This document shows positions 505-23,400 of a DNA stretch of 25,275 nt, piece by piece (positions within the stretch are counted from its first letter, which is position 1; every line of letters begins with the position of its first letter). The translations under genes and the position numbers were made by a program. The notes under the pieces are model-generated. The model searched no databases. It was given only the letters and a program-made list of their open reading frames with translations, and had not been told where the DNA came from. This DNA comes from a virus: positions 1-25,275 of the IMG/VR virus record IMGVR_UViG_3300035698_009021; one strand, 5' to 3'.

Positions 505-519
505 AGGTTCCGCGAACCT
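505..519 (-). terminator. Hairpin with U-rich tail at the end of the 519-848 gene
   Basis: AGGTTC (505-510) pairs with GAACCT (514-519) around a 3-base loop, overlapping the stop codon of the leftward gene. On the minus strand it is followed about 8 nt later by a run of five U residues (492-496). This is a modest intrinsic terminator candidate. Confidence 0.35.
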
Positions 520-848
520 TAATCAGCTACTCTACGTTCCTTCTCAACAGCAAGCGTATCATACTCTCGTTGGCGAGAAACACAAATCCACTCATTCGCA
601 GGGAGTTCTACTATCCCATGCTCGTCATGGTCAATCTGAATGTCCTGTTCACTTCTCAGATAGATATTACCCTTCTCGTCTATAACAGAATCCCGGGGTG
701 AAGCAACAGACGACTCGCAGATTGCATGAGAGTGTCCTGTAACTTCGCCATAAGCTAAAATATGGCTGTTATATGGCTTAGTCTTAGCTGGAGGAGCTGT
801 TACGGACTCGAAAAAAATATCACCTTGTCTTGCTTGGAACTTGTTCAT
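519..848 (-). CDS. Small phage protein with QGD and GEVTGHSHA motifs
   Basis: Read from the inner ATG (846-848) it is 109 residues long. Conserved-looking segments are FQARQGDIFF at the N-terminus, ILAYGEVTGHSHAI near residues 31-44 and a C-terminal region with HDEHGIVELPANEWICVSRQREY. I recognise this pattern from uncharacterised small phage and bacterial proteins containing QGD and GEVTGHxH; I know no function. The histidines could bind a metal, but this is a guess. A second in-frame ATG at 900-902 adds 18 residues (127 in total) because a 54-bp tandem duplication has copied the ribosome binding site, start codon and first codons. Both starts carry the same AAAGGA-type site, so both may be used. 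A terminator-like hairpin overlaps the stop. Confidence 0.75.
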   Translation of the reverse strand: MNKFQARQGDIFFESVTAPPAKTKPYNSHILAYGEVTGHSHAICESSVASPRDSVIDEKGNIYLRSEQDIQIDHDEHGIVELPANEWICVSRQREYDTLAVEKERRVAD

Positions 849-935
849 TTTCTTTTCCTTTCTTAAAAAATGCCGAACTTGTCTTGCTTGGAACTTGTTC
901 ATTTTCTTTTCCTTTCTTAAAAAATGCCGAACTTG
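824..935. repeat. 54-bp tandem duplication of a translation start region
   Basis: Positions 824-877 are repeated without change at 878-931, and the match continues four more bases to 935. The unit holds the leftward gene's AAAGGA-type ribosome binding site, its ATG and its first codons (MNKFQARQ). Because 54 is a multiple of three, the outer copy fuses in frame to the inner one. The perfect identity suggests a recent event. Confidence 0.9.
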
Positions 936-4898: not shown

Positions 4899-5255
4899 AT
4901 GGAAAAAATAACTCAACATAAACGAGTCGAAAAAACCTGGGGATTTGAACTATGGTTAGCTAATACCGATTTATATTGCGGGAAATTCCTAAACTTCAAA
5001 AAGGGCGCAAGTTGTAGCTACCACTATCATGAAGAAAAGCACGAAACATTCTATGTTAATGCAGGGAGCTGTCGTATTGATTTTGGATATGGAAATAAAC
5101 CAGATATGTCAATTACATTATCTAATGATGAAAGCTTTGTGGTTCCTCAAGGGCTAAGGCATAGAATCACAGGGTTAAGGGATTTTAATAATCTAATTGA
5201 AATATCTACACACCACGACGATTCTGACTCATATAGAATTATTTTGGAAAAATAA
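4899..5255 (+). CDS. Cupin-domain protein, sugar-isomerase-like
   Basis: 118 residues from the ATG at 4899, chosen because AAGGAA lies 6-7 nt upstream; an ATG at 4848 has no such site. The whole protein is one cupin barrel. WGFELWLANTDLYCGK near residues 14-29 resembles the start of phosphomannose-isomerase type cupins. YHYHEEKHE gives metal ligands His42, His44 and Glu49, and VPQGLRHRITG gives His88. Such small cupins often accompany sugar-nucleotide pathways as epimerases or isomerases. The glycan operon starts only about 600 bp downstream, so a part in that pathway is plausible but not shown. Another possible role is simple ligand binding. Confidence 0.75.
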   Translation: MEKITQHKRVEKTWGFELWLANTDLYCGKFLNFKKGASCSYHYHEEKHETFYVNAGSCRIDFGYGNKPDMSITLSNDESFVVPQGLRHRITGLRDFNNLIEISTHHDDSDSYRIILEK

Positions 5256-5847: not shown

Positions 5848-7833
5848 ATGGCGAAGAAAAAGACAGCCAAGAAAAAGACAACCAAGAAGATTTCGATACC
5901 AGACCCATTACCAACATCCTTGGACTCACCAACACAGCCGGAAGCTCCTCTTATGGTAGTAACTGGTGTTTGCAGTTGGGATTTAAAAACGCTAAGGTGG
6001 ATACATACACTGAGAGCAAGTGGCTTTGCTGGCCATATTATTTTGTATATTACAGATGAGAGTTGTGATATAGCTCTATTACAAGCGATTTCAGGGGCGT
6101 ACAAGGTCGAATTCCGTCAACAGGCTCAGAACCCACTTATTTGGAGTTGGGGCTCACAGCCTTGCTTCTTGGCGTTCCAGTGGATATTCATTGAGCAGAT
6201 AGCCAAGGAGTTCCCAGACTCCTGGATTCTTAGAACTGATATTCACGATGTTGTTTTTCAAACCAACCCAGAAGAACAAATAAAAACAGCTAAACCTAAT
6301 CAGGTATTTCTAGGGACCGAGGGTACTCTAGCTAAAGATAATCCGTTTATGGTTCAGTGGTATGGTGATGATGTAGCTTATGCTAATAATCTAGTTCATA
6401 GAAATTTGTTAGATGACCCAACATATAATTCTGGTATGATATGTGCAACCGGTAAGACACTGCAACCAATAGCTAAACGCATTCACGAGAATTATTTCAA
6501 AACTTTAGCAGACCAAACAGAAACATATGCTTCTGTTGTTTTCGCGCAAGAATTTGAGAATGTAGAATTAGTTTCAAACCTAGAATTCATGTTCGCCCTT
6601 AATAGTAACCTCAAGGACTCAGCAAGGGACTATGGGAAGATTTACAACAAAGATAGAAAGCTAGTCTGTATAGTTCACGCCAATGGAGATAATGTCAAAA
6701 AAGTTATTGATTTCTACTGGCCAGAAGAAAATTATAAATTTATTGCTAATAGAATTGTTAATAATTTAAATCCATTTTATCCCACCATTACAGCTTATAT
6801 TTCGACTAAGGGCAGAAGTGAATCCACTCTTCCACTAGCAGTTAAATCATTAATGCAACAAACCTTGAAGCCAGACCAGATTACTATCATAGACGACAAC
6901 GAGCCAAGATATAATTATAATAACAATGCTATATATAAATATCTTATTACCGAGGCTGCTAATAAACAAATATCAATGATATTTGTAGATGGGAAAAAGC
7001 GAGGTCAGGTAGCTAACCACGAGACCATTAGAAGCACAACCAAAACTGATTTGATTTTTAGAATGGATGATGATGAAATTGCAGATAATGAAGTTTTAGA
7101 AAATCTAGTTAAATCGATGCAAGATAAGAAAACAGGTGCAGTTGGACCACTGGTTCTGGTCCCTGGAATCGTTTCCCAGCCTCACGAAATGGTATCATCA
7201 AAAATTGAACACGTCAAGGATTACCAAAACGTACAGTGGTTTGTTCCGGATAGTACTGAATTAATTCCTGTAGACCATCTATATTCCTCATTCATCTATA
7301 GGCGAATAGCCTCATCTAACTATCCCAAGCTATCACCTCAAGGGCACAGGGAAGAGACAATCTTCACATATACTATGGCATTAGGAGGTTGGAGATTGTT
7401 TGTTGACCCAACTAATATCATTTGGCATTATAGATTAGTAGGTTCTGGAATACACCAAAACCTTAATAAGGCAAACCAAGAAAATGATGAGAAGGTTTTC
7501 GCTGATTTCCTAGCTAAGTATGGCGTTGAACAAGAGCCTATTTTCCTGTTACACGGTAAACACGGGCTTGGAGACCTAGAGGTTCTAACCCGTATTATCC
7601 CTGAAATTATAAAGCAGCATCAGGACGATAAGATTATAATTGGGACAGGACAAGGGGCATACGTGGAACTACTTGAAAAGTTCAAAGATGATATTACCAT
7701 TATATCTGAGGACCAAGCACTTAATTCCTTTGGAGAAAGATTTAAGAAATTATCTATATATAACTATATGGGTGTTAATAAATGGGATAAGTCACTAGAA
7801 GAAGCTTATAAGAAGCTATACTTAAAGGATTAA
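5848..7833 (+). CDS. Three-domain glycosyltransferase (GT-A + GT2 + GT9-like N-half)
   Basis: 661 residues, beginning with a Lys-rich AKKKTAKKKTTKK tail. Domain 1 (about 35-300) is a GT-A type sugar transferase: VVTGVCSW at the start, LRTDIHDVVFQTNP with Asp131 and Asp134 as the metal/nucleotide-binding acidic pair, and VHANGD with His277 at the end. Domain 2 (about 311-545) is a GT2-type transferase: ITAYISTKGRSESTLPLAVK, IIDDNE, then RMDDDE (Asp407-409) as the DxD motif, and QGHREE and WHYR near 498-529. Domain 3 (about 563-661) starts IFLLHGKHGLGDLEVLTRII, which resembles the N-terminal half of GT9 heptosyltransferases (G-x-GD). A separate GT9 C-terminal-half protein is encoded at 11316. 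It is the first gene of the operon and is followed after 1 bp by the cytidylyltransferase. The product is probably cytoplasmic. Confidence 0.8.
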   Translation: MAKKKTAKKKTTKKISIPDPLPTSLDSPTQPEAPLMVVTGVCSWDLKTLRWIHTLRASGFAGHIILYITDESCDIALLQAISGAYKVEFRQQAQNPLIWSWGSQPCFLAFQWIFIEQIAKEFPDSWILRTDIHDVVFQTNPEEQIKTAKPNQVFLGTEGTLAKDNPFMVQWYGDDVAYANNLVHRNLLDDPTYNSGMICATGKTLQPIAKRIHENYFKTLADQTETYASVVFAQEFENVELVSNLEFMFALNSNLKDSARDYGKIYNKDRKLVCIVHANGDNVKKVIDFYWPEENYKFIANRIVNNLNPFYPTITAYISTKGRSESTLPLAVKSLMQQTLKPDQITIIDDNEPRYNYNNNAIYKYLITEAANKQISMIFVDGKKRGQVANHETIRSTTKTDLIFRMDDDEIADNEVLENLVKSMQDKKTGAVGPLVLVPGIVSQPHEMVSSKIEHVKDYQNVQWFVPDSTELIPVDHLYSSFIYRRIASSNYPKLSPQGHREETIFTYTMALGGWRLFVDPTNIIWHYRLVGSGIHQNLNKANQENDEKVFADFLAKYGVEQEPIFLLHGKHGLGDLEVLTRIIPEIIKQHQDDKIIIGTGQGAYVELLEKFKDDITIISEDQALNSFGERFKKLSIYNYMGVNKWDKSLEEAYKKLYLKD

Positions 7834-7834
7834 T

Positions 7835-8512
7835 ATGAGAACATTATTGTTAGGTCAGGCTAGAGAAAACTCAACTAGATGTAAATCTAAGATGGTTAAA
7901 CCATTCGCAGAAACAACATTAACTGATTTATATTTAAAATTACTATCTACATTAAAGAATAGTAATGTTTGGACTGATGTTAAGTTTGCTTATCATCCTG
8001 GTGATACTAACATTTCCAACATAGTTAAGAAGTATGATATAGAAACAATAATTAGGAATGATGATTCTATATCTAAGAATCCTGATATTTCTAGATTACA
8101 GATACATCATTATCTTAAAAATATGGATTATGATTATGTTCAAATCGTAAATGGGTGTTTTCCTTTCCTACAACCAGAAACTATATATAATATATATAAG
8201 AAGTTTATAGATACTAATTGCGAAGGTTTACTACCTGTTATTGAATTTAAAGACTGGGTATTCAATGTAGACCCTTGGTTCCCTATCTCATTTACTAATC
8301 CTAATTTACACGGGACTCAGTTGTCAGACCCTATGTGGCGAGCATTCCACGCATCTTTCATCTTCAATAGACAATATTTAGTATCATCAGGAGATTTCTT
8401 TCCTATAAAGAAAGGGAACCCTTATTTACACAAAATAGATATAGCTGAGTATGAGAAAATTGACATAGACACAGAAGAACAGTTTTTAATAGCGGAGATG
8501 CTTTATGAGTAA
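7835..8512 (+). CDS. NeuA-like CMP-sugar cytidylyltransferase
   Basis: 225 residues. The N-terminus, ARENSTRCKSKMVKPF (Arg10, Arg15, Lys19), matches the CTP-binding A-R-x-x-S-x-R-x-x-x-K loop of acylneuraminate and KDO cytidylyltransferases. IVNGCFPFLQPETI occupies the place of the usual T-x-P-F segment, and the C-terminal YEKIDIDTEEQFLIAE matches the E-x-IDIDT-x-x-D/E-F-x-x-AE ending of the family. Known members join CTP and a nonulosonic acid to give the CMP-sugar. With a NeuB-like synthase four genes downstream the reaction is a good fit, but the acceptor sugar (sialic, legionaminic, pseudaminic or other) cannot be read from sequence. It overlaps the radical SAM gene by 8 nt. Confidence 0.75.
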   Translation: MRTLLLGQARENSTRCKSKMVKPFAETTLTDLYLKLLSTLKNSNVWTDVKFAYHPGDTNISNIVKKYDIETIIRNDDSISKNPDISRLQIHHYLKNMDYDYVQIVNGCFPFLQPETIYNIYKKFIDTNCEGLLPVIEFKDWVFNVDPWFPISFTNPNLHGTQLSDPMWRAFHASFIFNRQYLVSSGDFFPIKKGNPYLHKIDIAEYEKIDIDTEEQFLIAEMLYE

Positions 8513-9329
8513 ACACGAAAATGATTCAGCGAGAATAGATAAATCATATCTAAATTTTTGGTATAATCACAAAGGCGTCGCCCCACAGTTTATGGCTGAT
8601 TTAGGACTTATGTTTAAACGAGTTCTAATAGAAATGACTGATTATTGTCCGTTGAAATGCGATAGATGCAACAGGGCTTGTAACTTAGTAGATGATTGTA
8701 ACTACCTCACAGTAGAACAAGTTAAGGTGATTCTAGACGAAATGAAGGAGCTTAGTTTTGAGCCAGTCAAATTCAGTTTGCAGGGGGGAGAGCCCACGGA
8801 TAGCCCATTTCTAATTGATATAATTAAGACTATACACGAGTATTTTTCAGATGTTGAAATTCACGTGTATACTAATGGGCTCTCTGAGAAGACCAAAAGA
8901 CTTATTAGTTTATTAGATTTAATACCATATGTTACTATTCAGGATTCAGCTAAAACTGGTTCGAAGGACAACAAAAGCCACGGAATAACATTTGAACAGT
9001 TTACAATCTCGCCTGATAGTTTAGGTATGGATGATGAGTTAATTGCTAGAGGTTGTAAATTCCCTTATCAGTGTGGAGTTACGATTTCAGCTACCGGATT
9101 AATTTATCCTTGTCCTTGTGGAGGTATAGTTGACAAAGTATTTTATGATAGTTCTCACGGTTTTGAGTCTTTAAAAGATTATACTTTACCAAACATTATT
9201 AAACTATTCCCTGACCTATGTAAATATTGTGGTAGGCTCCACGGACAATCTGACCTACCTATGCCAGATATTAGTTTAGACTGGTTTAAAGCTTTAAAGG
9301 AATATAATAGCAAGAGGAGCACTTTGTGA
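8505..9329 (+). CDS. Radical SAM protein with SPASM-like C-terminal cysteines
   Basis: 274 residues. YCPLKCDRC gives the CxxxCxxC cluster ligands Cys48, Cys52 and Cys55 for the SAM-binding 4Fe-4S centre. LQGGEPT (94-97) is the GGEP motif and VYTNG the following strand. The C-terminal part has further cysteines, GCKFPYQC (184, 190), YPCPCGG (203, 205) and LCKYC (239, 242), as in SPASM or twitch domains that hold auxiliary clusters. Such enzymes modify peptides or sugars by radical chemistry. The neighbours are all sugar genes, so a sugar-modifying step is possible. It overlaps genes on both sides (8 nt and 4 nt), so it is translated with the operon. Confidence 0.85.
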   Translation: MSKHENDSARIDKSYLNFWYNHKGVAPQFMADLGLMFKRVLIEMTDYCPLKCDRCNRACNLVDDCNYLTVEQVKVILDEMKELSFEPVKFSLQGGEPTDSPFLIDIIKTIHEYFSDVEIHVYTNGLSEKTKRLISLLDLIPYVTIQDSAKTGSKDNKSHGITFEQFTISPDSLGMDDELIARGCKFPYQCGVTISATGLIYPCPCGGIVDKVFYDSSHGFESLKDYTLPNIIKLFPDLCKYCGRLHGQSDLPMPDISLDWFKALKEYNSKRSTL

Positions 9330-9847
9330 AAATAGCAATACTTAGTCCAGGTCCATCATTGAAGTTATTCCCAACTAAGAACGATTATGATATCTTAGTT
9401 GGAGTTAATAGGGCTGCTAACTATATTGACTGCGATTATTTATCAATATATAATGATTTCAATTGGGAGTATATTAACACCAATAATAAACCAATAATAT
9501 TAACCCAGACCTGGGAGTATTGCCGAATGATTGATAATTTTGGTTTAATAGGTTTAGACAATAAAAGATATAAAATTGAAAATATGGTTTGGCCTGACAT
9601 CGACGGGGTTGAACATTTATCGTTTACTGTCGCTATTGTGTTTGCAATTAACAAATCCAATAAAGGCTCTGTTATTGATTGTTATGGAAATGATTTCAAA
9701 GGCAATGAAGATTTTGATGGATATTCAACAGAAGTTAATAAGAAAAACAGGATAGCCAGTAACTTCGATAAGACAATAATTATTTATAATCAGCTAGTTG
9801 ATTATGCTAAAGCTAAAGATATTACGTTGAATAGAATAAGGAGTTAA
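9326..9847 (+). CDS. GPSL-motif protein 1, putative sialyltransferase-like or MptE-like enzyme
   Basis: 173 residues starting with GTG (9326-9328) inside the previous stop (GTGA overlap), with GAGGAG about 9 nt upstream. AILSPGPSLKLF (Gly9-Leu12) and YDILVGVNRAANY (residues 21-33) match the glycine-rich start and N-R-A segment seen in GT29-like and DUF115/MptE-like proteins, which handle nucleotide-linked substrates. DFDGYSTEVNKKNRI lies near the C-terminus. It is a paralog of the protein at 10681, which has the same motifs in the same order. Lying between a CMP-sugar synthetase, a radical SAM protein and NeuB, it is a candidate transferase for a CMP-activated keto-sugar. This role is inferred from context. 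Confidence 0.6.
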   Translation: MKIAILSPGPSLKLFPTKNDYDILVGVNRAANYIDCDYLSIYNDFNWEYINTNNKPIILTQTWEYCRMIDNFGLIGLDNKRYKIENMVWPDIDGVEHLSFTVAIVFAINKSNKGSVIDCYGNDFKGNEDFDGYSTEVNKKNRIASNFDKTIIIYNQLVDYAKAKDITLNRIRS

Positions 9848-9848
9848 T

Positions 9849-10688
9849 ATGCAAAGACCTAGACCAATGATAATAGTAGACTTGGGGGTAAACCATAATG
9901 GAGATTTAAAGCTAGTATTAGAAATGATAACTGCCTGTAAGGAAGCTGGAGCTGATATAGTAAAATTTCAAAAAAGAACAATAAATAAGGTGTATAAAGA
10001 TTCTCATTTAGATTCAATTTCTTATGACAACGTACATACGTGGAGGGAGATTTGGTCTAAATGGGAGTTAAGAAAAAAGGATTATAATGTTATAGATAAA
10101 CATTGTCGTAGTTTAGACATATCTTGGACAGCCTCAGTGTGGGATAAAGAATCAGTTGATTTCATTCTTGATTATGATGTGCCTTTCCTAAAGATTTCTT
10201 CAGCGTGTATAACTGATATTCCTTTATTAGAATACGTTAAAGCAACTGGCAAAGATGTCTTTATGTCTACAGGAATGTCTAATATGAAAAATATATTAGT
10301 TGCTTCTAATATCTTAAATCCTTCCTTTATTATGCATTGCACTAGCTCATATCCAACTCCGGATTTGGAATTGAACTTAGCATTTATTCACAATTTGCAG
10401 CAGCTATTTCCTGACACTGCCATTGGTTTCTCTTCTCATACTGATATATTCCCATCTCAGATGGCTATGTTGTTAGGGGCTATGGCGATAGAGCATCACG
10501 TAACACTTTCTAAAACGATGGAAGGTCCAGACCAATCAGCATCTATTGATATGGAAGAGCTAAAAATTCTTTGTTCTTTCGCGAAAAAATGCGAAAGATG
10601 TGTTGATTGTCTAACTGGCGAATATAAATCAATTTATGATTCAGAATTAGATAAAATTATAGAACTAAGAGGCTATCAAAATGTTTAA
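9849..10688 (+). CDS. NeuB-like nonulosonic acid synthase, without SAF domain
   Basis: 279 residues forming a NeuB TIM barrel. Visible motifs are VDLGVNHNGD (residues 10-19), ADIVKFQ (35-41), STGMS (140-144), MHCTSSYPTP (162-171), GFSSHT (193-198) and IEHHVTL...GPDQSAS (214-232). These correspond to the PEP-binding and metal-binding parts of sialic, legionaminic and pseudaminic acid synthases, which condense phosphoenolpyruvate with a six-carbon sugar to a nine-carbon keto-acid. Typical NeuB proteins have about 340 residues and end in an antifreeze-like SAF domain, which is absent here. The 3' end overlaps the next gene by 8 nt. The enzymes that would make its hexose substrate are not in the window, so that sugar may come from the host. 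Confidence 0.85.
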   Translation: MQRPRPMIIVDLGVNHNGDLKLVLEMITACKEAGADIVKFQKRTINKVYKDSHLDSISYDNVHTWREIWSKWELRKKDYNVIDKHCRSLDISWTASVWDKESVDFILDYDVPFLKISSACITDIPLLEYVKATGKDVFMSTGMSNMKNILVASNILNPSFIMHCTSSYPTPDLELNLAFIHNLQQLFPDTAIGFSSHTDIFPSQMAMLLGAMAIEHHVTLSKTMEGPDQSASIDMEELKILCSFAKKCERCVDCLTGEYKSIYDSELDKIIELRGYQNV

Positions 10689-11307
10689 ATTAAGACGCCT
10701 AGGACCAGGTAAAATTGAGTGTAGAGAGGATTATGACCGAAGGTTGGCCGCCTGGAGGTATGAGAGAGAATTCTCTAGGAGCGGGAAAGCGCTTATAATT
10801 TGTCCTGGTCATTCATTAAACAATTTTAATAAAGACAATCTGAAAAACTATGAAATCTTGATTGGAATAAACAGGGCTTGTAATTATTCGAATTTATTTG
10901 ATTATTTTTGTATAGGAAATACTTATAATTTCCCAAAAATAGATTGGAACAAATACACTAGATTGCCTATGATTTGTTGCTTAGAAAAAACGTGGAATGT
11001 AATGATAGAAAAAGAAGGGCTTCAAACGAAACATTTTGATAGAGTTTCAGCAGAACAATTATATTATTACGAGATTCCAAAGCCTCACCATTATAGTTTT
11101 CATTTAGGTGTTTTTCTAGCTTTGTATAAAGAATATAAAGATATCGATATTGTAGGTTTAGATTGCGACCCTAACCAGCAATCTGATTGGGATGGATATG
11201 TTACTGATATTAATGTAAGAGATAGAATAGAAAAGAATTTTGATTTTACATTAGAACTGTTAAACGAGATAAAGAAAAGAACTAAAGCGAATATTAATAG
11301 ATTATAG
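10681..11307 (+). CDS. GPSL-motif protein 2, paralog of the 9326 product
   Basis: 208 residues. After a basic N-terminal extension (residues 1-35) it repeats the pattern of the 9326 protein: LIICPGHSLNNF (Gly43, Ser45, Leu46; His replaces Pro in GPSL), YEILIGINRACNY (57-69), and DWDGYVTDINVRDRI near the C-terminus. The two genes flank neuB, which suggests duplication inside the operon with divergence of specificity. As for its paralog, a GT29/MptE-like nucleotide-sugar role is the best guess. No signal peptide or membrane helix is present. It starts inside the end of neuB and is followed after 8 nt by the GT9-like gene. Confidence 0.6.
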   Translation: MFKLRRLGPGKIECREDYDRRLAAWRYEREFSRSGKALIICPGHSLNNFNKDNLKNYEILIGINRACNYSNLFDYFCIGNTYNFPKIDWNKYTRLPMICCLEKTWNVMIEKEGLQTKHFDRVSAEQLYYYEIPKPHHYSFHLGVFLALYKEYKDIDIVGLDCDPNQQSDWDGYVTDINVRDRIEKNFDFTLELLNEIKKRTKANINRL

Positions 11308-11315
11308 GAGATATT

Positions 11316-11780
11316 ATGGCTAAGATTTTAATTCATCCCTTTGCTTCAAAGCTACAGAGTGGAAAGATGAACGCAAAGAGCTTTCCTTACTGGCGTGAGC
11401 TTAAGGTATTACTCCACCAACAGGGACACACCTTAACCCAGATTGGGACTGACCAAGAAGAGGATTTGGATATGGACGAATTCAAGAAGAATTTGCCTAT
11501 GGATGAGGTTAGGAAGGAAATTAACAATCACGATTTCTTCATAGCCTGCGATTCGTTTATTCCCCATATGGGTGCTACGGAAGGAGTATCAGGGATAGTT
11601 ATATTCTCAAAGTCTGACCCAAAGATATTTGGTTATGAATTTAATGATAATTTGGTTAAGCCTGAGCATCTGAGGTCGTCCCAACACGCAGTATGGAGCG
11701 AGGTGCCTTGGGTTAAGGAAGCTTTCGTTAAGCCAGAGGAGATAGCTGTGGTAGTGGAAAAGTGGGCTAAAGGAGAATAA
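11316..11780 (+). CDS. GT9 (heptosyltransferase-like) C-terminal-half protein
   Basis: 154 residues with GGAGAT 5 nt before the ATG. ILIHPFASKLQSGKMNAKSF starts like the second Rossmann half of GT9 enzymes. FPYWRELKVLLHQQGHTLTQ and IGTDQEED follow, and IACDSFIPHMGATEGVSGIV near residues 76-95 matches the D-S-x-x-x-H-x-x-x nucleotide-sugar-binding turn. FSKSDPKIFGYEFNDNLVKP completes the fold. GT9 enzymes normally have both Rossmann halves in about 300-350 residues; here only one is present. The first half may be the last domain of the 5848 protein. The stop overlaps the HNH start by one base. Confidence 0.7.
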   Translation: MAKILIHPFASKLQSGKMNAKSFPYWRELKVLLHQQGHTLTQIGTDQEEDLDMDEFKKNLPMDEVRKEINNHDFFIACDSFIPHMGATEGVSGIVIFSKSDPKIFGYEFNDNLVKPEHLRSSQHAVWSEVPWVKEAFVKPEEIAVVVEKWAKGE

Positions 11781-12163
11781 TGGCAAGACCTAAAACTAAA
11801 TTCAATCAAGGAGAATGCCTGAAGGTTTGGTCTAAGATTATAAAGAAGCAGAATGGAAGGCATTGTGCTGTTTGTAAGAAAGCAGAAGGCAAACTTGATA
11901 GTCATCATATTATATCTAAAAGATTCTGTTCTTTTGAATTTTTAAATGGAATAATTTTGTGTCCTTTTCACCACTCGTTCGGACTTGAATCTGCCCATAG
12001 AAATGCTGTTTGGTTTGCCGAATGGTTGAGGGAGCATCGACCAGAACAGTATAAGTTTATTATGAAGTTCAAATACCATAAGAAGATTTGGACACCAGCC
12101 AAGTATAAAATAAAGTATTACGAGTTAAATAGTTATTTGGAGAAAATGAAAAATGGAAAATGA
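11780..12163 (+). CDS. HNH endonuclease family protein
   Basis: 127 residues. CAVCKK (Cys29, Cys32), LDSHHIISKR (Asp40, His42, His43), the Asn of FLNGIIL (Asn56) and CPFHH (Cys61, His64, His65) form a zinc-bound beta-beta-alpha HNH motif. The C-terminus is basic and aromatic. HNH proteins near terminase genes often assist packaging nicking, but this one is about 3 kb before the terminase and joined to the glycan operon by a 1-nt overlap, so it may instead be a free-standing homing-type nuclease. Its TGA overlaps the ATG of a tiny ORF that carries the tRNA fragment. Confidence 0.8.
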   Translation: MARPKTKFNQGECLKVWSKIIKKQNGRHCAVCKKAEGKLDSHHIISKRFCSFEFLNGIILCPFHHSFGLESAHRNAVWFAEWLREHRPEQYKFIMKFKYHKKIWTPAKYKIKYYELNSYLEKMKNGK

Positions 12164-12946: not shown

Positions 12947-14602
12947 ATGGGTCTCGAAAAACTTCAAAGCAATGCAGCTAAAACCGTAGATTCACTTGGC
13001 AACGTTGACCCTAGCGTTATAAATGCTGCTGATAAAAATGTCTTATCGTGGAATTCTGGTTCAGGGCTTTGGTTCGCTATAGACCCTGCTGTTAGCTCAG
13101 GAGCTGTTTTTGACGGAAATGTTTCCATCTCTGGGACCTTAAAAATTTCAGGCATAACAACCGATGTTGCTACATATATTAAAGTTGTTTCCGGTTGGGC
13201 GATATCTAACTCAGGCAGAATAGATACCAATATAACACAGATAGGAAATAACTCAGGACTTATATCTGGTCTTTCTGGTTATGTCGTCTTAAACTCAGGT
13301 CGGATAGACGCAAATACTTCTAATATTACTTCTAATTCGGGTTGGATTGTTTCTAATTCAGGTAGAATAGACACAAATACTTCTAATATTACTTCTAATT
13401 CAGGATGGATTGTTGGCAATTCTGGGGAAATCGTCTTAAACTCAGGTAGAATAGATACAAATACAGGAAATATTACTTCTAATAGTGGCTGGATTGTTTC
13501 TAATTCTGGCAGAATAGACAGTAATATAACCCAAATAGGAAATAACTTAGGGGAAATCGTCTTAAACTCAGGTAGAATTGATACCAATACTTCTAATGTA
13601 ACTAGTAATTCAGGCTGGATTGTTTCTAATTCTGGAAGAATTGATACAAATATAACACAGATAGGAAATAACAGTGGTAGAATAGACACAAATATAACAC
13701 AGATAGGAAATAATTCAGGACAAATTGTTTCTAATTCTGGAAGAATTGACAGTAACACAAGCCAAATAGGAAATAACAGCGGAAGAATAGATGATGCCTT
13801 ACTCAAAGACGCTAGCGTAGCGTCTGTAGGATTACAATATTTTAATTCTGGATTAACTGTGCCTGTCGGGGCGGGGACAGGAAACGATTTTCTCGGGTCT
13901 GGGGCTGGTACCGGAGGCGTAACAGGTTCTAATAACTCCAGCCTCGGGCGAAATACATTAAAAGCACTGACGACAGGTTCGTCAAATATGGCGATTGGCG
14001 CTCACGCAGGCCAGTCAATTACTGGAAGTACAGCTAACGCTTTTATAGGCAACAGTGCTGGACGGGACCAATCAACAGGTGGTACTTCAACATTTATTGG
14101 TTACACCGCAGCCGTAACTTATGGCGGAGGCTGGAATAATACCGTAATTGGAGCGGTCGGTGCTGCGACATTAACAGGTGGGAATGACAACGTCCTAATC
14201 GGAGCAAGGGTAGATGTAATAGCAGCGTCGCAAACTGGTACTATTATTATTGGAAAGTCTTGTTCAGGAGCCACTGGGGACATTAATATTGGCACTAAAT
14301 TCTGGTATGACGCTGATGGAATTGGAATTATCTTGAACGATGATACTGAAGTGTCAGGTACTCTTACAATCCAAGATTCTAGTAATAAAATTGTAGTAGA
14401 CCCAGATAATTCAATTATACAGTGGGACGGCGGTTCTACAATCACAGTTCTAACCTGCTCCCAAGAATCTGATATAACTGATGCAGAAACTATTCACGCC
14501 GCTACCGACTTTAGTGAAGTAAATACAGCGTTAGATAATCTCGGGGAAAAGGTGAACGAAATATTAAGCAGTTTAAGAACAAGAAGCATAATTAATAATT
14601 AA
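12947..14602 (+). CDS. Phage fibre: N-at-d coiled-coil stalk and YadA-like head
   Basis: 551 residues. Residues 1-80 are a beta-rich base (VLSWNSGSGLWFAI is typical of phage fibre N-termini). Residues about 82-285 are an unbroken run of roughly 28 heptads of the form I-x-x-N-(S/T)-x-x, e.g. IDTNTSNITSNSGW. In trimeric autotransporter adhesins this spacing puts Asn at core position d, where it coordinates anions. Residues about 300-435 have glycine-rich IG..AG repeats (MAIGAHAG, AFIGNSAG) as in YadA-type left-handed beta-rolls. A C-terminal helix (SEVNTALDNLGEKVNEILSS) follows. It is therefore probably a homotrimeric receptor-binding or decoration fibre. Its position ahead of the terminase, not after the tail genes, is unusual. 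The DNA repeats create a long spurious ORF on the other strand. Confidence 0.8.
   Translation: MGLEKLQSNAAKTVDSLGNVDPSVINAADKNVLSWNSGSGLWFAIDPAVSSGAVFDGNVSISGTLKISGITTDVATYIKVVSGWAISNSGRIDTNITQIGNNSGLISGLSGYVVLNSGRIDANTSNITSNSGWIVSNSGRIDTNTSNITSNSGWIVGNSGEIVLNSGRIDTNTGNITSNSGWIVSNSGRIDSNITQIGNNLGEIVLNSGRIDTNTSNVTSNSGWIVSNSGRIDTNITQIGNNSGRIDTNITQIGNNSGQIVSNSGRIDSNTSQIGNNSGRIDDALLKDASVASVGLQYFNSGLTVPVGAGTGNDFLGSGAGTGGVTGSNNSSLGRNTLKALTTGSSNMAIGAHAGQSITGSTANAFIGNSAGRDQSTGGTSTFIGYTAAVTYGGGWNNTVIGAVGAATLTGGNDNVLIGARVDVIAASQTGTIIIGKSCSGATGDINIGTKFWYDADGIGIILNDDTEVSGTLTIQDSSNKIVVDPDNSIIQWDGGSTITVLTCSQESDITDAETIHAATDFSEVNTALDNLGEKVNEILSSLRTRSIINN
13195..13798 (+). repeat. Degenerate 21/42-bp repeats coding the fibre stalk
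   Basis: Units such as AATTCAGGTAGAATAGA and ACTTCTAATATTACTTCTAA recur many times in frame with modest variation, giving the IxxN(S/T)xx heptads. Copies are close enough in sequence to recombine, so stalk length may vary between relatives. Confidence 0.8.
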
Positions 14603-14934: not shown

Positions 14935-15278
14935 TGGGAGCCCCAGGTTCGTCAGAAAGGCTTTTCAAGAAAGGAAATGTTTGTAGAACTGGCGCAAAAT
15001 CTCCAAGGGCTGCAACTAAGCGTAGATTCCGTGAGTGGTTAGGGAAGACTGAGACTGAGGACGATTTTGCAAAAGTTTGGAAAAAGCTCAAGGACATTAT
15101 AGATAAAACCAAAAATACAAAGGAATTATTAATAGCCATTAAGACTTATCTTGAATATACAATTGGTAAACCTAAGCAAGAAATTGATGCTGTCATAGAG
15201 CACGGAATGTCAACCGAAGACCAGTATATTATAATTAAGGACATCATTAACGAAAAATTAACTGCCAATAATGATTAG
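14934..15278 (+). CDS. Probable terminase small subunit
   Basis: 114 residues. The basic N-terminus (SERLFKKG, AATKRRFREWLGK) and helical middle (DFAKVWKKLKDIIDKTKNTK) are followed by LLIAIKTYLEYTIGKPKQEI. The TIGKPKQ segment followed by an acidic I-D-A stretch resembles the end of several small terminase subunits, where a Y-x-x-G-K-P-x-x sequence links to the oligomerisation part. It overlaps the large terminase by 8 nt, the usual place for this gene. Small subunits bind the packaging start site on DNA. No classical helix-turn-helix is obvious, so the call depends partly on position. Confidence 0.6.
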   Translation: MGAPGSSERLFKKGNVCRTGAKSPRAATKRRFREWLGKTETEDDFAKVWKKLKDIIDKTKNTKELLIAIKTYLEYTIGKPKQEIDAVIEHGMSTEDQYIIIKDIINEKLTANND

Positions 15279-16548
15279 TTTTTTACCTTACCAATTAGAA
15301 TACATAAGACATAAAAGTAACCTAATTTATGAGAAATCCAGACAAATTGGAGTTACTTATGCTGCCGCTTTTAAATCGATTTTAAGGGCATTAGACAAAA
15401 ATGATACTTTTTATGTTGCGCAGGATGAAAAATCATCAAAGAATTTTATAAGCTTATGTTCTTTTTTCGCGAAAGAATTTGAGATACCAGAAGTAGAGGT
15501 GACAGCCTTGGGTCTAACCCTGGGGGGAAACTGTTCTAAGATAGTAGCGTTAACAAGCAATCCTAGGACGCTGAGAGGAAAGACTGGTTCAGTTATACTA
15601 GATGAATTTGCTTTCCACCTAGACCAGGACGACCTTCTTGCTGCGGCTGTTCCAGTGACGACCTGGGGAGGCAGCCTAGAAATAATTTCCACTCATAATG
15701 GTCCTAATTCTGTTTTTTATAGAATGCTATTGGAAGCAAGAGAAGAAGAAGATTCATCTTATAAAATATTACATACTGATGTTTATGATGCTATATCTCA
15801 AGGATTGGCACAAAAGATTGCTAAAACAAGAGGCGTAGAAATATCAGATGATGCTTTTCTTAAAGAAATTAGAAGTAAAATATCAAGCTTCGCCTGGGAA
15901 CAAGAATATGAATGCAAGATAGCCTCAGAAGGCTCCACAATCGTCGGTATGGAGTCTTATAAAGGATTACTATCTAAGCATCCTATTCCAGATTTTCTTG
16001 AGGATAGAGATTACGGAGAGCTTTATGCCGGTATAGATGTAGGTAGGACCAAGAACTATACCGTCCTGTGGATAATAGAAAAATGCTATAATGACGAAGA
16101 AGATAAAATTTATTATAAAACAGTTTGTATTAAATGGATTCAAAATATGGATTTAACTAAACAAACAAAGATTTTAGATAAAATAGTTGGTCATAAATGC
16201 ATAGTAAAATGCGCTATAGACCAAGGTTTGTTTGGTAGGTCGATATCTGATGATTTACTTAATGCTTATGGAAAAAAAGTAATAATTCCAATAGGCTTTT
16301 CAAATAAACTAGAGGCTGAGCTTTGTGAGATTACCAGAAAAGCAGTTGAATATGAACAGATAGATTTTCCTGATAATAACTTAATTATGCACGATATTTG
16401 TTCTATGAGACAAACTTATACCAATTCTGGAAATATTAGATACGAAGGTGGAGTTGGAGATAGTCACGCAGATTTCTTTTATGCTTTAGCACTGGCGATA
16501 AAAATGGCTGAGCAATTCGCCAAAAAGAAATTAATGTTTGCAATTTAA
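15271..16548 (+). CDS. terL: Terminase large subunit (packaging ATPase and nuclease)
   Basis: 425 residues. ATPase domain: EKSRQIGVTY (residues 21-30) is the deviant Walker A of large terminases, VILDEF with Asp111 and Glu112 is Walker B, and SLEIISTHNG (135-144) is the coupling motif. Nuclease domain with RNase H-like fold: AGIDVGRT (Asp256), CAIDQG (Asp317) and DSHADFFYALALA (Asp401) supply the metal-binding acidic triad. The protein pumps DNA into the prohead and cuts it. The length is at the short end of the family but both domains are complete. It is followed after 12 bp by the portal gene. Confidence 0.93.
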   Translation: MISFLPYQLEYIRHKSNLIYEKSRQIGVTYAAAFKSILRALDKNDTFYVAQDEKSSKNFISLCSFFAKEFEIPEVEVTALGLTLGGNCSKIVALTSNPRTLRGKTGSVILDEFAFHLDQDDLLAAAVPVTTWGGSLEIISTHNGPNSVFYRMLLEAREEEDSSYKILHTDVYDAISQGLAQKIAKTRGVEISDDAFLKEIRSKISSFAWEQEYECKIASEGSTIVGMESYKGLLSKHPIPDFLEDRDYGELYAGIDVGRTKNYTVLWIIEKCYNDEEDKIYYKTVCIKWIQNMDLTKQTKILDKIVGHKCIVKCAIDQGLFGRSISDDLLNAYGKKVIIPIGFSNKLEAELCEITRKAVEYEQIDFPDNNLIMHDICSMRQTYTNSGNIRYEGGVGDSHADFFYALALAIKMAEQFAKKKLMFAI

Positions 16549-16560
16549 TAAGGAATTAAT

Positions 16561-17865
16561 ATGGGACTTTTCAATATCTTTAATAGATTTCACAAGAAAC
16601 AAGCAACTACGATAACATCTAGTGCACAGTCTGTTTCTCCTCAATCTAACAACAACTTTACATCTCCATTGCTATATGGATTTAATTCACCTAGTTTCGG
16701 AAGTTACACAGACTCTAAATCATTAGAGAATTTCCTATCCTGGGTTTATGTTTGTGTAGACGGAAACGCAGGGCGACTAGCAGGCGCTGATATGGGTCTA
16801 TATACCCAAGCCCCTGAATCGTTCTCAAGAACTAAAGCTGTTAATGTTAGAAATCCAGCTAGGAAATTGAGAAATAAGATATTAGATACTGGACAAAAGT
16901 TTGTTAAAGTAGTTGATACTGACCATCCTATTGTGCAGATTATAAACCATCCTAATGAACTGCAAAACTATTATACATTTTTCTATAAAACTTTTGCCTA
17001 CCTATTCTTAACTGGAGATGCTTACTGGTATAAACTTCGAAATGAATCAGGGCAAATGACCGGAATGGCTGTTATCGACCCAAGAAGAATTAAGGCAATT
17101 GTTTCCTCAGACACCTGGCAAATACTGGGATGGACCTGGGAGAACAGTGGCACAACGACTCAGATTCCAAGAGAAGATATAATTCACGTACCGTATCCTA
17201 GTCCTCAATCTGACACTAACGGGTACTCACCAGTCCATGGGCTTTGGGATGATTTAGTGATTTCCCGAGAAAAAGCAAATTCTGATTTATCCTCAGCGAA
17301 AAATTCAAGCAAGCCGTCATTTGCTGTTATGGTTAAAGACGCTGACCAGGATGACTTAACCAGATTTAAAAATGCTATAAAAAAGGAACATTCAGGAACG
17401 TCTAACTCAGGCAAGTTTATGGTCTTAGACGCTGACCAAGCTTCTATTGAAACGTTACAATTTGATGGAGAAGTCACGGGTGACCCTGAGATTATTGTCA
17501 GGAAAATTTGTGCTGGTTTGAAATATCCTTATGCTAAGATTATAAGCAACGAAGTTAATATGGCTTCAGCAGATACCGTTTTTAATTCTTGGATGGAAGA
17601 TTTGGAGCCTTTGCAATCACAAGTTGAGGATGCCTTAAATTCTGAATTTATTACAGAATTCCCTGAGCTACAGGCAGGCTCAATGCTTTTATTTGAAAAT
17701 CTTTCTAAAAAAGATAAAGAATTCTCACTGAAAGAAAGTACAGAATTATTTAAGAATAAGATTATTGATAGACATACAGCAAAAACAATTCACGGTCTTG
17801 CAGCAGAAGATAACGATAAAGACATTTATTTCGATGGCAATACAGATGACCTTGAACAGGAGTAA
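16561..17865 (+). CDS. Portal protein, HK97 type
   Basis: 434 residues, with AAGGAA ahead of the ATG. Hallmarks of the HK97/phi105 portal family: WVYVCVDGNAGRLAGADMGL (clip and wing start), HPIVQIINHPNELQNYYTFF, GDAYWYKLR, VIDPRRIKAI, IIHVPYPSPQSDTNGYSPVH, a long helix near KKDKEFSLKESTELFKNKII, and DRHTAKTIHGLAAEDN at the C-terminus. It forms the dodecameric ring at the capsid vertex through which DNA enters and to which the tail joins. The N-terminal 40 residues are polar and poorly conserved. It sits between the terminase and protease as expected. Confidence 0.92.
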   Translation: MGLFNIFNRFHKKQATTITSSAQSVSPQSNNNFTSPLLYGFNSPSFGSYTDSKSLENFLSWVYVCVDGNAGRLAGADMGLYTQAPESFSRTKAVNVRNPARKLRNKILDTGQKFVKVVDTDHPIVQIINHPNELQNYYTFFYKTFAYLFLTGDAYWYKLRNESGQMTGMAVIDPRRIKAIVSSDTWQILGWTWENSGTTTQIPREDIIHVPYPSPQSDTNGYSPVHGLWDDLVISREKANSDLSSAKNSSKPSFAVMVKDADQDDLTRFKNAIKKEHSGTSNSGKFMVLDADQASIETLQFDGEVTGDPEIIVRKICAGLKYPYAKIISNEVNMASADTVFNSWMEDLEPLQSQVEDALNSEFITEFPELQAGSMLLFENLSKKDKEFSLKESTELFKNKIIDRHTAKTIHGLAAEDNDKDIYFDGNTDDLEQE

Positions 17866-17867
17866 TA

Positions 17868-18773
17868 ATGAGCAAGTTTAATAAAGTACAGAAACAAGAA
17901 ATTAAAGACAGATATGCTTCTAAGAAAGGGCAAAAGCTAACTGCTTCAGCCTCAATTCAAATCAAAAGTGATTTAGAATTTGAAATCGGCAAAGATGAAA
18001 AAGCTTTTGTTGGTGTTGTAACTGCCTCAACTGTTGATTCTGACAATGAGGTAGTTCTTAACTCCGGTCTAAATTGGAAGAGATTTGATAAAGTCGGTGG
18101 ATATGTATATTACAATCACGACCGTCAAAGTTTGCCTATCGGGTTTTCCTCGAATAGAAAGCAATATGAAGATTATACCGTAGCTAAAACCATTCTATTC
18201 GACCGTCCAGAGGACCACGAAGGCTCGTGGTTGCCAGATGTCATCCATAGCATAGGAAAGCAAATGAGCGAGGCTGGAAAGCCTATGGGGGCTTCTATTG
18301 GTTTTATCCCATTGGACGGCCGCGTGGCGACTGAGAAGGATAGGGAAAAATTTGGGAAAAAGGTCGAATGGCTATGGACCAAGGGTGATATCCACGAATA
18401 TTCGATTACTCCAAGTCCTGCCAACTCAGATGCTTTATCATTTACTAAGTCTATTGACACAGATACTTATAAATCCGCAATAAAAGAGCTTAAGAAAGAT
18501 GTAGAAGATGTAGAAGATGTAGAAGATGTAGAGGCTGAGGCGACTACGGTAACTTTAGATGCTTTAAATGCCAGATTGGATGAGATTTTAGAATTACTGG
18601 CAGATAAACCAAATGAAGAAGTTGTTGAGGAAGTAGTTGAGGAAGTCCCAGAAGAAGTTGTTGAGGAAGAAGTAGTAATTGAGGATTACGAGCCAGTATT
18701 AGATTATACCCCTGATATTGACGTAGAATCTGTAGAAAATAGCTTATCTAAAGGAAAAATAAGGTTTAAATAA
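17868..18773 (+). CDS. Prohead maturation protease with acidic scaffold-like tail
   Basis: 301 residues. The first 190 form a herpes/HK97 (U35-type) protease: VYYNHDRQSLPIG with His84, MGASIGFIP with Ser143, and IHEYSITPSPANSDAL (175-190). This serine protease cleaves scaffold and capsid precursors. Residues about 195-285 are strongly acidic with DVEDVEDVEDVE and EEVVEEVVEEVPEEVVEEE and a short helix DALNARLDEILELLADKP. No separate scaffold gene lies before the capsid, so this tail may serve as the scaffold, a known solution in some phages; here it is inferred. A GATGTAGAA tandem repeat encodes the DVE part. Confidence 0.88.
   Translation: MSKFNKVQKQEIKDRYASKKGQKLTASASIQIKSDLEFEIGKDEKAFVGVVTASTVDSDNEVVLNSGLNWKRFDKVGGYVYYNHDRQSLPIGFSSNRKQYEDYTVAKTILFDRPEDHEGSWLPDVIHSIGKQMSEAGKPMGASIGFIPLDGRVATEKDREKFGKKVEWLWTKGDIHEYSITPSPANSDALSFTKSIDTDTYKSAIKELKKDVEDVEDVEDVEAEATTVTLDALNARLDEILELLADKPNEEVVEEVVEEVPEEVVEEEVVIEDYEPVLDYTPDIDVESVENSLSKGKIRFK
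18500..18535. repeat. 9-bp GATGTAGAA tandem repeat in the protease tail
   Basis: Four near-perfect units of GATGTAGAA encode DVE repeats. Slippage would change the acidic tail by whole codons without loss of frame. Confidence 0.8.
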
Positions 18774-18793
18774 GTTTTTATATCAAAATTCTT

Positions 18794-18907
18794 ATGTCTA
18801 AACGTATTACTTATGGAAAAATAAAACGCTTGAACCGGGTAGTTGAATTTCTGGACCGGACGAGGCGAGTATTTTTACTAGAACTTAATTTAATTATTGG
18901 AGAATAA
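18794..18907 (+). CDS. 37-residue basic micro-ORF before the capsid gene
   Basis: ATG (18794) to TAA (18905-18907) encodes MSKRITYGKIKRLNRVVEFL followed by DRTRRVFLLELNLIIGE. No good ribosome binding site lies directly before it. Its stop is one base before the capsid ATG, and its last codons contain the capsid GGAG site, so translating it would couple to capsid synthesis. It is strongly basic at the start and hydrophobic at the end. If it is not coding, the 130 bp between protease and capsid form an unexplained leader. Confidence 0.35.
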   Translation: MSKRITYGKIKRLNRVVEFLDRTRRVFLLELNLIIGE

Positions 18908-18908
18908 A

Positions 18909-20084
18909 ATGATTTATCAAGTCAAAGACCTCGATACTATTATCCGAGAAAAGGGTAATGATGGTATTGATGAGGTTGGTAAAATTCTCGCTAAAAAAGA
19001 TTCTGAAATTATGAAAGGCGAGACAAGAGTTAATTACAAACTACCTGAAAAGGCAAAAATTATAGAGGAAAAGAAAATGGATACGATAGTACCGGTTCAA
19101 AAAGAAAAGCTTAGTCAGAAAGAATCTGCTCGTAATTTCTATATGGGTATGTTCAAGGCTATTAAAGACGGCGATAGAATTAATTTCAATGTTGACAATG
19201 TTCAGAAGGCGTTCCCAACTGGGGCTACCTATACCGTCGATATAAATGACGGACTTGTTGATGCCGTTGCTGAAACTACAATTCAATTGTTAGATACGCC
19301 ATTGCTTAGTAGAATAACTGTTATTCCTATGAGCAATCCTACGCTGAGACTACCTCAGATGAGACTAGGTTCTGGCGCGCCCTCAGGGATAACCGAAGGT
19401 TCATCCAAGCCTCAGATTAGAGGTTCTGGCGATTATGTCCTGTTAACTGCTGAAGTTTACGCAGGCTGCCTACCAATTACCGAGGAAGCACTTGACGACG
19501 TTGCTGCGTTTGCAACATACGGACCTCAGCTTCTAACAAATGAAATTAAGCTTCGCCTTAACGGTAAAGTGGCTGGAGATATTGTCGCCGCGAGCGGACG
19601 CCATAGTTTCACCCAGACCTCGGGTGTTGGCGCAACAGCACAGAGTGGTTATATCAGCGGTCTCCCCACCCCGACTGACCTTATCAATGCCGTTAGTCAC
19701 CTAACCGATAGTATGGTTGGTTCAACCGCCATCGTTTGTCACCCACTCGTTGGAACGCAAATCAAGCTATTCGATTCTGGCGTTCGGGCACTTTGGGATG
19801 TTGCCGCAAAGACTATGACATACCTTGGAATTCCTATTATTGAGGACCCAAATATGACGACCCCGGCCAGCGGTGCTTCAGGGACTTGGGCGGTTGTTGA
19901 CCTTGCTAAGATAGCAATTGGTATTCGTTCTGCGATGAAGACAGAATTTAATCCACTTTATGCGTGGGATGCAGATGGGGTCAGTTTCCGCACTAAGATT
20001 AGAGCTGATATTGCTCCTATCAATAACTTCGTACTAACTTACTCCGGTTTCGAGTTCAGTTCTTACGTTGTTCAGAGTCAATAA
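18909..20084 (+). CDS. Major capsid protein, HK97 fold
   Basis: 391 residues from the ATG at 18909 (GGAG 6 nt upstream); a TTG-started reading from 18897 is unlikely. The first about 90 residues are charged and helical, like the delta/scaffold part removed by the protease. The HK97 core follows: LLSRITVIPMSNPTLRLPQM, TEGSSKP, DYVLLTAEVYAGCLPITEEA (E-loop to P-domain) and LTNEIKLRLNGKVAGDIVAA in the spine-helix region. The later PIIEDPNM, WAVVDLAKIAIGIR and SFRTKIRADIAPINNFVLTY are A-domain elements. GC content is visibly higher than in neighbours, as often seen for the most highly expressed phage gene. A G+C-rich hairpin follows the stop. Confidence 0.9.
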   Translation: MIYQVKDLDTIIREKGNDGIDEVGKILAKKDSEIMKGETRVNYKLPEKAKIIEEKKMDTIVPVQKEKLSQKESARNFYMGMFKAIKDGDRINFNVDNVQKAFPTGATYTVDINDGLVDAVAETTIQLLDTPLLSRITVIPMSNPTLRLPQMRLGSGAPSGITEGSSKPQIRGSGDYVLLTAEVYAGCLPITEEALDDVAAFATYGPQLLTNEIKLRLNGKVAGDIVAASGRHSFTQTSGVGATAQSGYISGLPTPTDLINAVSHLTDSMVGSTAIVCHPLVGTQIKLFDSGVRALWDVAAKTMTYLGIPIIEDPNMTTPASGASGTWAVVDLAKIAIGIRSAMKTEFNPLYAWDADGVSFRTKIRADIAPINNFVLTYSGFEFSSYVVQSQ

Positions 20085-22987: not shown

Positions 22988-23377
22988 ATGGCAGGAGCCC
23001 CAATTAGTTCAAAACTATCTTACTTAACCTATGCGACGGTTAAGATGGATGATATTACAAATATCACAGTTTCTCAAACTAACGATGCGCAAGCATATGG
23101 TAGTTCTGATACCGGTGGTTATATCCACCGTGTTGCTGGTCATAATGATAGTAGCATAACATTTACCCAGCTGTGTTCAGGCGGAGTTTTCGGCGGGATA
23201 ACCATCGGAGCTACGGTCGCCTTAATTGTAACTGCTTCTGGCGGAGCGGCTAATAAAACTTGGACTGGTTCTTATGTCATTACTGATATCAGTCAGTCAG
23301 TTCCAATCGGAGATGGTGGAATTGTATCTAGAGATGTGACGGCTGCCCAGCAAGACACCCCAACCGGCGCAGCCTAA
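22988..23377 (+). CDS. Tail tube protein, paralog 1
   Basis: 129 residues starting MAGAPISSK. Shared with the next protein are DDITNITVSQTNDAQAYGSS, SDT-x-x-Y-x-x-R-V-x-G near residues 40-51, SSITFTQL, then VITDIS and VPIGDGGIVSRDVTA at the C-terminus. This length and strand pattern fit the small tail-tube subunits that stack as hexameric rings. The paralog follows after 23 bp with the same orientation. It is placed just before the gene that precedes the tape measure, as expected for a tube protein. Confidence 0.7.
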   Translation: MAGAPISSKLSYLTYATVKMDDITNITVSQTNDAQAYGSSDTGGYIHRVAGHNDSSITFTQLCSGGVFGGITIGATVALIVTASGGAANKTWTGSYVITDISQSVPIGDGGIVSRDVTAAQQDTPTGAA

Positions 23378-23400
23378 CATATAGTTCAAAGGAGATTATA

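Follow-up and report, generated by a model that had tools for sequence, protein, structure and literature searches.

What sugar would a phage make with a NeuB-family synthase that lacks the SAF domain, and on what would it place it? The question is raised by the virus record IMGVR_UViG_3300035698_009021, taken here as the whole IMG/VR record of 25,275 bp (the window in what follows). It is probably a fragment, and its terminase, portal, protease and major head protein genes at 15271-20084 indicate a tailed phage. An initial annotation had described seven tightly spaced genes at 5848-11780 as a nonulosonic-acid-type operon able to make, activate, modify and transfer a nine-carbon keto-sugar. 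All seven open reading frames (ORFs) are present on the + strand, and their spacings of +1, -8, -4, +1, -8 and +8 bp are confirmed. The gene set is not a chance assembly, since relatives of its members co-occur in other phages. It is a real and coherent operon, a variant on the nonulosonic-acid theme that joins a distinctive synthase subfamily to an unusual nested arrangement. The model in which the operon, as a whole, would serve the phage for decoration with a 2-keto-3-deoxy sugar acid is given a probability of about one half. The features on which this model is built are the following.

5848-7833, + strand: P0001, three-domain glycosyltransferase (putative GT-A-fold domain at about 34-243, GT2 at about 313-440, GT9 N-half at about 560-661)
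7835-8512, + strand: P0002, predicted cytidylyltransferase of the NeuA/PseF/SpsF type (TIGR03584, 2.5e-6)
8505-9329, + strand: P0003, predicted radical SAM enzyme (PF04055, 9e-9)
9326-9847, + strand: P0004, GPSL protein a, putative sugar-acid transferase (AlphaFold2 (AF2) model with an MptE/Maf/Cst-II-like fold)
9849-10688, + strand: P0005, SAF-less NeuB-family aldol synthase using phosphoenolpyruvate (PEP) (PF03102, 9.6e-60)
10681-11307, + strand: P0006, GPSL protein b, paralog of P0004 (36% identity)
11316-11780, + strand: P0007, GT9 C-half, pairing with the C-terminal region of P0001 (PF01075, 0.0026, under the cut-off)
7834-11315, + strand: five-gene block (cytidylyltransferase, radical SAM, GPSLa, NeuB, GPSLb), exactly between the GT9 halves
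12947-14602, + strand: virion fibre or tail-spike protein, candidate acceptor (phrog_4636 tail spike, 3.3e-5; 19 NSG motifs)

In such a system, P0001 and P0007 would build a base glycan, for which the phage's own fibre with its Ser/Gly repeats is the most likely acceptor, and the nested five-gene block would supply an acidic sugar. P0005 would condense PEP with an aldose, probably not N-acetylmannosamine (ManNAc). P0002 would convert the resulting sugar acid to its CMP-activated form, P0003 might alter it, and P0004 and P0006 would transfer it.

The synthase is the best defined element. Assignment of P0005 to the NeuB family is secure: besides PF03102, profile searches retrieve PDB entry 2wqp at 1.3e-30. 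The residues binding PEP and Mn (K53, K129, S132, S154, S213, H215 and H236 in the numbering of Neisseria meningitidis (Nm) NeuB) are all kept. On the acceptor side, T110, F112, E134 and N184 are replaced by S, W, C and S, which is not the pattern of an N-acylneuraminate synthase. Moreover, the protein has only 279 residues, its NeuB domain match stops at residue 250, the SAF domain is absent and no ORF encoding one was found nearby. In canonical NeuB, Arg314 of the SAF domain contacts ManNAc, and the R314A mutation inactivates the Nm enzyme (PMC6795526). Because the acceptor-side residues are recoded and the SAF domain with its essential R314 is absent, the acceptor of P0005 is probably not ManNAc. 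The NeuA- and NeuB-like labels of the initial annotation are upheld by the profile searches, with PEP/metal and nucleotide residues intact. A loss of active-site residues, which had been named there as grounds for refutation, is found where the acceptor sugar would bind, the PEP-binding side being intact.

These features are those of a whole subfamily. The viral set consisted of the best 80 loci by likeness to P0005 out of at least 567 relatives found by profile scan, and was not selected on the S[VC]WD position. Among the NeuB-family proteins near the query at all loci, 91 of 96 are short, and matches to the SAF domain are confined to the canonical-length ones. The non-redundant set holds 81 different short viral sequences with a median length of 281 aa. 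In these, K53, Q55, K129, S132, S154, Y186, S213, H215, E234, H236 and D247 (Nm) are invariant or nearly so; T110 is recoded to S, F112 to W, N184 to S, and E134 mostly to M, L, S or C. The same pattern is seen in 80 bacterial relatives (Streptomyces, Chloroflexota, Caulobacter and others), a signature that was partly preselected there, one search pattern having contained S[VC]WD. A tree splits the short from the canonical forms with support 96/96. No description of a SAF-less viral NeuB was found in open-access text, and current models would label such genes N-acetylneuraminate synthase. The uniform residue changes would make such genes, hundreds of them in viruses and bacteria, easy to recognise, and lead to a concrete prediction of their substrate.

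The second element is the enzyme that would activate the product. Judged from profiles and motifs, P0002 appears to be a genuine cytidylyltransferase of the NeuA/PseF/SpsF type. Its match to the PseF model TIGR03584 extends over the full length (residues 8-225), under the equivalog cut-off, and PF02348 gives 20.9 bits, just below the cut-off of 22.6. A profile built from 12 viral relatives, with the window excluded, retrieves P0002 at 5.9e-42, and the family profile with the window included matches the CMP-NeuAc synthetases 1qwj (3.2e-11) and 1eyr (5.9e-6). The motifs QARENSTR at 8-15 (QARxxSTR) and DIDT at 210 are intact. A gene of the NeuA/SpsF type is a conserved neighbour of NeuB in phages: it lies within 7 kb in 56 of 66 non-redundant viral loci, within 60 bp in 16 of these, and in none of the GT9C control loci.

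The block containing these two genes occupies an unexpected position. P0001 and P0007 contain the two halves of one GT9, a point that the initial annotation had overlooked, as it had the SAF loss in NeuB and a cupin gene upstream (see below). The GT2 domain of P0001 matches PF00535 at 1.2e-9. An AF2 model of residues 1-310 has a mean pLDDT of 58.8, and its top VIA rows are all GT-A-type glycosyltransferases (Z 10.4-11.9), which suggests, at low confidence, a GT-A fold for the N-terminal domain. Both Rossmann halves of the GT9 were assigned by homology to proteins that are fused in two viral loci (L131 and L132), a direct Pfam match being available for the C-half alone. P0007 is 40-42% identical to a gene adjoining the GT2-GT9N gene of Methylophilaceae phage P19250A. 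Its relatives occur in 46 viral loci, P19250A included, and the upstream GT2-GT9N part is visible in 45. In 44 of these 45 the halves are adjacent or fused, as neighbouring genes in 42 (38 sharing four bases) and as a single protein in L131 and L132. These 45 loci belong mostly to one phage group (35 in one cluster) and represent about ten independent lineages. The fused chains (L131 3391-6435, L132 2623-5667) are 1,014 aa long and carry an N-terminal methyltransferase-like region before GT2 and a complete GT9. L133 is the one other locus where the halves stand apart, by 3,572 bp, as compared with 3,482 bp and five genes in the window. The genes between the halves there (L133 2629-8660) are two that resemble methyltransferases and two related to the N-terminal domain of P0001.

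As 44 of 45 relatives keep the halves side by side or fused, insertion of the five-gene NeuB block at the GT9 junction is the simplest explanation, and the junction may be a recurrent insertion site. No convincing flanking repeats were seen at the block ends. An empty site in a near relative is not demonstrable, no close terminase kin having been found (best identity 28% in viral contigs and about 31% in annotated phage records). An HNH endonuclease-like gene at 11780-12163 shares one base with the end of the gene for the GT9 C-half and could bear on the mobility of the cluster.

What would the sugar be attached to? The initial annotation had left the choice between virion proteins and the host envelope, and the linkage evidence leans to the fibre. 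The fibre gene lies 1.2 kb downstream of the operon on the same strand. Its NSG motifs are spaced mostly by 7 or 14 residues, forming a Ser/Gly heptad repeat, and it contains 29 SG pairs against a mean of 10.3 and a maximum of 19 in shuffled sequences. Of 7 informative lineage groups, 4 have collagen-like SG-repeat tail proteins beside the GT2-GT9 module; no such protein was seen in 80 NeuB loci or in 10 loci of terminase kin. On account of the NSG-rich fibre downstream and of these tail proteins, the virion fibre would be the leading target, ahead of the host envelope. Decoration of virion proteins by phage-encoded glycosyltransferases is known in mycobacteriophages (Che8, Corndog, Myrna; PMC12363180).

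The strongest competitor is modification of the host envelope (lipopolysaccharide, capsule or a teichoic-type polymer) that would shut out superinfecting phages or change receptors. This is the usual interpretation of phage glycan clusters. It has been given to those that combine cupins, HAD phosphatases and several glycosyltransferases, for example in cyanophages (PMC7824862), bacterial SAF-less NeuB genes often adjoin NeuA-type and other sugar genes, and the window has a cupin typical of cyanophage sugar clusters:

4899-5255, + strand: small cupin, 118 aa from the first ATG, just upstream of the operon (Cupin_2, 2.9e-8)

This protein matches MannoseP_isomer at 9e-5, just under the cut-off, and phrog_7851 at 3.7e-34. 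Homologs are found in 25 viral NeuB loci (16 non-redundant groups), directly abutting the cytidylyltransferase-NeuB pair in L019 and L024, and relatives occur in 35 records of cyanophages and marine viruses, where nucleotidyltransferase or phosphoheptose isomerase genes are frequent neighbours. This cupin regularly accompanies SAF-less NeuB in phages and recurs in cyanophage sugar clusters as well; it may be a sugar isomerase. Its identity as a phosphomannose isomerase supplying mannose 6-phosphate (Man-6-P) was not confirmed, the PDB and cyanophage matches being generic cupins. In cyanophage sugar clusters RefSeq names the cupin 'cysteine dioxygenase', although the genes around it point to a role related to sugars. 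Against an envelope target, the operon stands on the same strand as, and just upstream of, the repeat fibre and the terminase-portal-capsid block, its GT2-GT9 module keeps the company of SG-repeat tail proteins described above, and the searched genes included no recognisable polymerase, flippase or acyltransferase. Envelope modification is accordingly held to be possible, at odds clearly below even. Because this sugar-acid cassette lies within a glycosyltransferase module found with repeat-rich tail proteins in several phage lineages, decoration of the virion can be tested directly.

The identity of the sugar is the next question. The make-activate-transfer logic of the initial annotation holds for a 2-keto-3-deoxy sugar acid; an ordinary nine-carbon nonulosonic acid as the product finds no support, since the acceptor-side residues and the SAF domain characteristic of N-acetylneuraminate synthases are lacking across the subfamily. 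Our best guess is a product of the 2-keto-3-deoxynononic acid (Kdn) type, made from mannose or Man-6-P and giving Kdn or Kdn-9-P. Several observations favour it. One Streptomyces genome has a short-type gene as its sole NeuB-family gene, and Kdn occurs in the teichulosonic acid of Streptomyces walls (PMC11481543), a polymer made by SCO4873-4882 (PMC13011467); SAF-less NeuB may thereby be linked to the Kdn-containing teichulosonic acid cluster. In addition, KdsC/Kdn-9-P-phosphatase-like HAD proteins are among the neighbours of bacterial SAF-less NeuB. A Streptomyces neighbour considered as a polysialyltransferase was not confirmed by Pfam. Aminotransferase genes adjoin some bacterial copies, a hint that products may differ between clusters. 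The order aminotransferase class III, short-chain dehydrogenase/reductase, KdsC-like phosphatase, SAF-less NeuB recurs in distant phyla (L144, L158, L195). NeuC and PseB/C-type genes are indeed missing from the 25-kb fragment, as had been remarked, but their absence is what one would expect with a common non-amino sugar as acceptor: a Kdn-type product would need no amino-sugar genes.

An ordinary nonulosonic acid pathway, in which NeuB would make N-acetylneuraminic (Neu5Ac), legionaminic (Leg) or pseudaminic acid (Pse) from N-acyl sugars supplied by the host and tolerate the loss of SAF, has in its favour that, among NCBIfam models, P0005 is matched best by NeuB_NnaB (3.2e-59) and PseI (1.7e-46), and P0002 by PseF. 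Yet P0005 scores far under the corresponding equivalog cut-offs (200.6 against 399.65 and 159 against 340.25), the acceptor residues are uniformly recoded across the subfamily and R314 is absent. Furthermore, three phage loci (L030, L049, L073) have both a SAF-less and a longer NeuB-family gene, and the coexistence of the two forms in one locus suggests different jobs. We regard this pathway as improbable here.

Transfer of the sugar acid would fall to the GPSL proteins P0004 and P0006 (173-208 aa). The three-domain glycosyltransferase, the GPSL paralogs and the GT9 half described initially are all borne out, by PF00535, an AF2 model, PF01075 and homology. Searches of Pfam, NCBIfam and PHROG gave no meaningful match for either GPSL protein, and none to MptE-like or CST-I; single-sequence scans of viral contigs returned no relatives of GPSLa or of the GT9 C-half, nor did a two-sequence GPSL alignment retrieve any there. 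The AF2 model of P0004 (pLDDT 74.1, pTM 0.73) aligns with Cst-II at VIA Z 9.2 over 165 of 173 residues and with human GT29 sialyltransferases at Z of about 8. A profile of two other phage GPSL families, with the window excluded, finds P0006 at 27.8 bits. With this clean profile, GPSL-like genes appear in 24 of the 66 non-redundant viral NeuB groups. A looser iterative profile, which may have drifted since it took in an antisense ORF, places them within 60 bp of NeuB in 17 groups. NeuB-adjacent relatives match the MptE-like/Maf Pfam family, one above the cut-off, and the same one weakly matches CST-I. The huge phage LR756508.1 (L006 7247-12068) has four GT29-like sialyltransferase paralogs around its SAF-less NeuB, one of them confirmed by Pfam (PF00777, 2.2e-30). 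A resemblance to Cst-II is described for the Maf_flag10 domain (PF01973), and Maf proteins move CMP-nonulosonic acids onto flagellin Ser/Thr (PMC11339370). From their position beside NeuB, where LR756508.1 has GT29-type genes, and from the modelled fold, we infer a transferase role for the GPSL proteins.

P0003 has CxxxCxxC at C48/C52/C55 in addition to its PF04055 match. It is a radical SAM protein as annotated; the SPASM part of the label finds no profile support (no PF13186 match), though six further Cys lie in the C-terminal part. It may modify the sugar. No relatives were found among annotated phage records, and a single-sequence scan of viral contigs gave one short match.

That radical SAM, the pterin- or thiamine pyrophosphokinase-like GPSL proteins and the cytidylyltransferase build a secondary metabolite or nucleotide-type small molecule, with no protein or envelope glycan, would fit the versatility of radical SAM enzymes and the GPSL fold's matches to MptE-type HPPK and thiamine pyrophosphokinase, but is very improbable in view of the glycosyltransferase genes on both sides of the block and of GPSL relatives adjoining NeuB and sugar genes, with GT29-type genes there in one phage.

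Several points weigh against the sugar-acid decoration model itself. The enzyme functions of the operon proteins are predictions from sequence and models. P0005 sits on a very long branch of the tree, where its exact placement is unsure; P0003 is an orphan; and no sugar-acid phosphatase gene is seen in the fragment. The GPSL fold is common to thiamine pyrophosphokinase (Z 10.9 over 116 residues) and MptE-type HPPK (10.5 over 133), at similar or higher Z than Cst-II. Most viral GPSL relatives have a conserved His after GxD, and the window copies read FDGY and WDGY; if this His is a Cst-II-type catalytic base, P0004 and P0006 may be inactive or mechanistically different. Finally, the SG-repeat link comes from few independent lineages, and L094, L133 and L091 are without it. 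A wider proposal is more tentative than the decoration model: SAF-less NeuBs would form a large, phage-common and mostly uncharacterised branch with a rebuilt acceptor pocket and a product of its own (Kdn or an undescribed one), and a sugar acid altered by radical SAM chemistry would decorate the Ser/Gly repeats of the tail fibre. We think it possible, on the doubtful side.

Elsewhere in the window, two tandem genes of the virion region at 22988-23787 share about 48% identity, and a perfect 54-bp tandem duplication at 824-935, at the start of the ORF 519-902 (- strand), is either genuine or an assembly artefact.

Comparison with known systems helps to situate the operon. With the bacterial nonulosonic acid pathways (NeuB/NeuA and sialyltransferase; PseI/PseF and Maf), it shares a PEP aldol synthase, a cytidylyltransferase and a candidate transferase resembling Maf or Cst-II, gathered in one operon. 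It differs by its SAF-less NeuB with a recoded acceptor site, by its radical SAM gene, by its position next to virion genes and, over the 25-kb fragment, by being without NeuC or PseBCGH/Leg genes. In the latter respect it would be closer to the Kdn pathway, of the type of B. thetaiotaomicron BT1714 or of the Kdn-9-P synthetase of Prymnesium parvum, which is specific for Man-6-P (PMC6200933): only Man-6-P and PEP would be needed, though no phosphatase gene is seen in the fragment. Compared with Maf flagellin glycosyltransferases and the GT42 enzyme Cst-II, the GPSL proteins have a GPSL-type N-terminal motif and, as modelled, a possibly similar fold over most of the protein, but are shorter, have no Pfam match, and carry DGY at the conserved His of their relatives. 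In mycobacteriophage virion glycosylation, as far as the consulted part of the source describes it, no sugar-acid synthesis genes accompany the glycosyltransferases, unlike in this phage. The GT2-GT9 module of P19250A and its relatives has the same GT2-GT9N and GT9C genes; its halves are adjacent or fused, whereas here five genes lie between them and P0001 has an extra N-terminal domain, putatively of the GT-A type.

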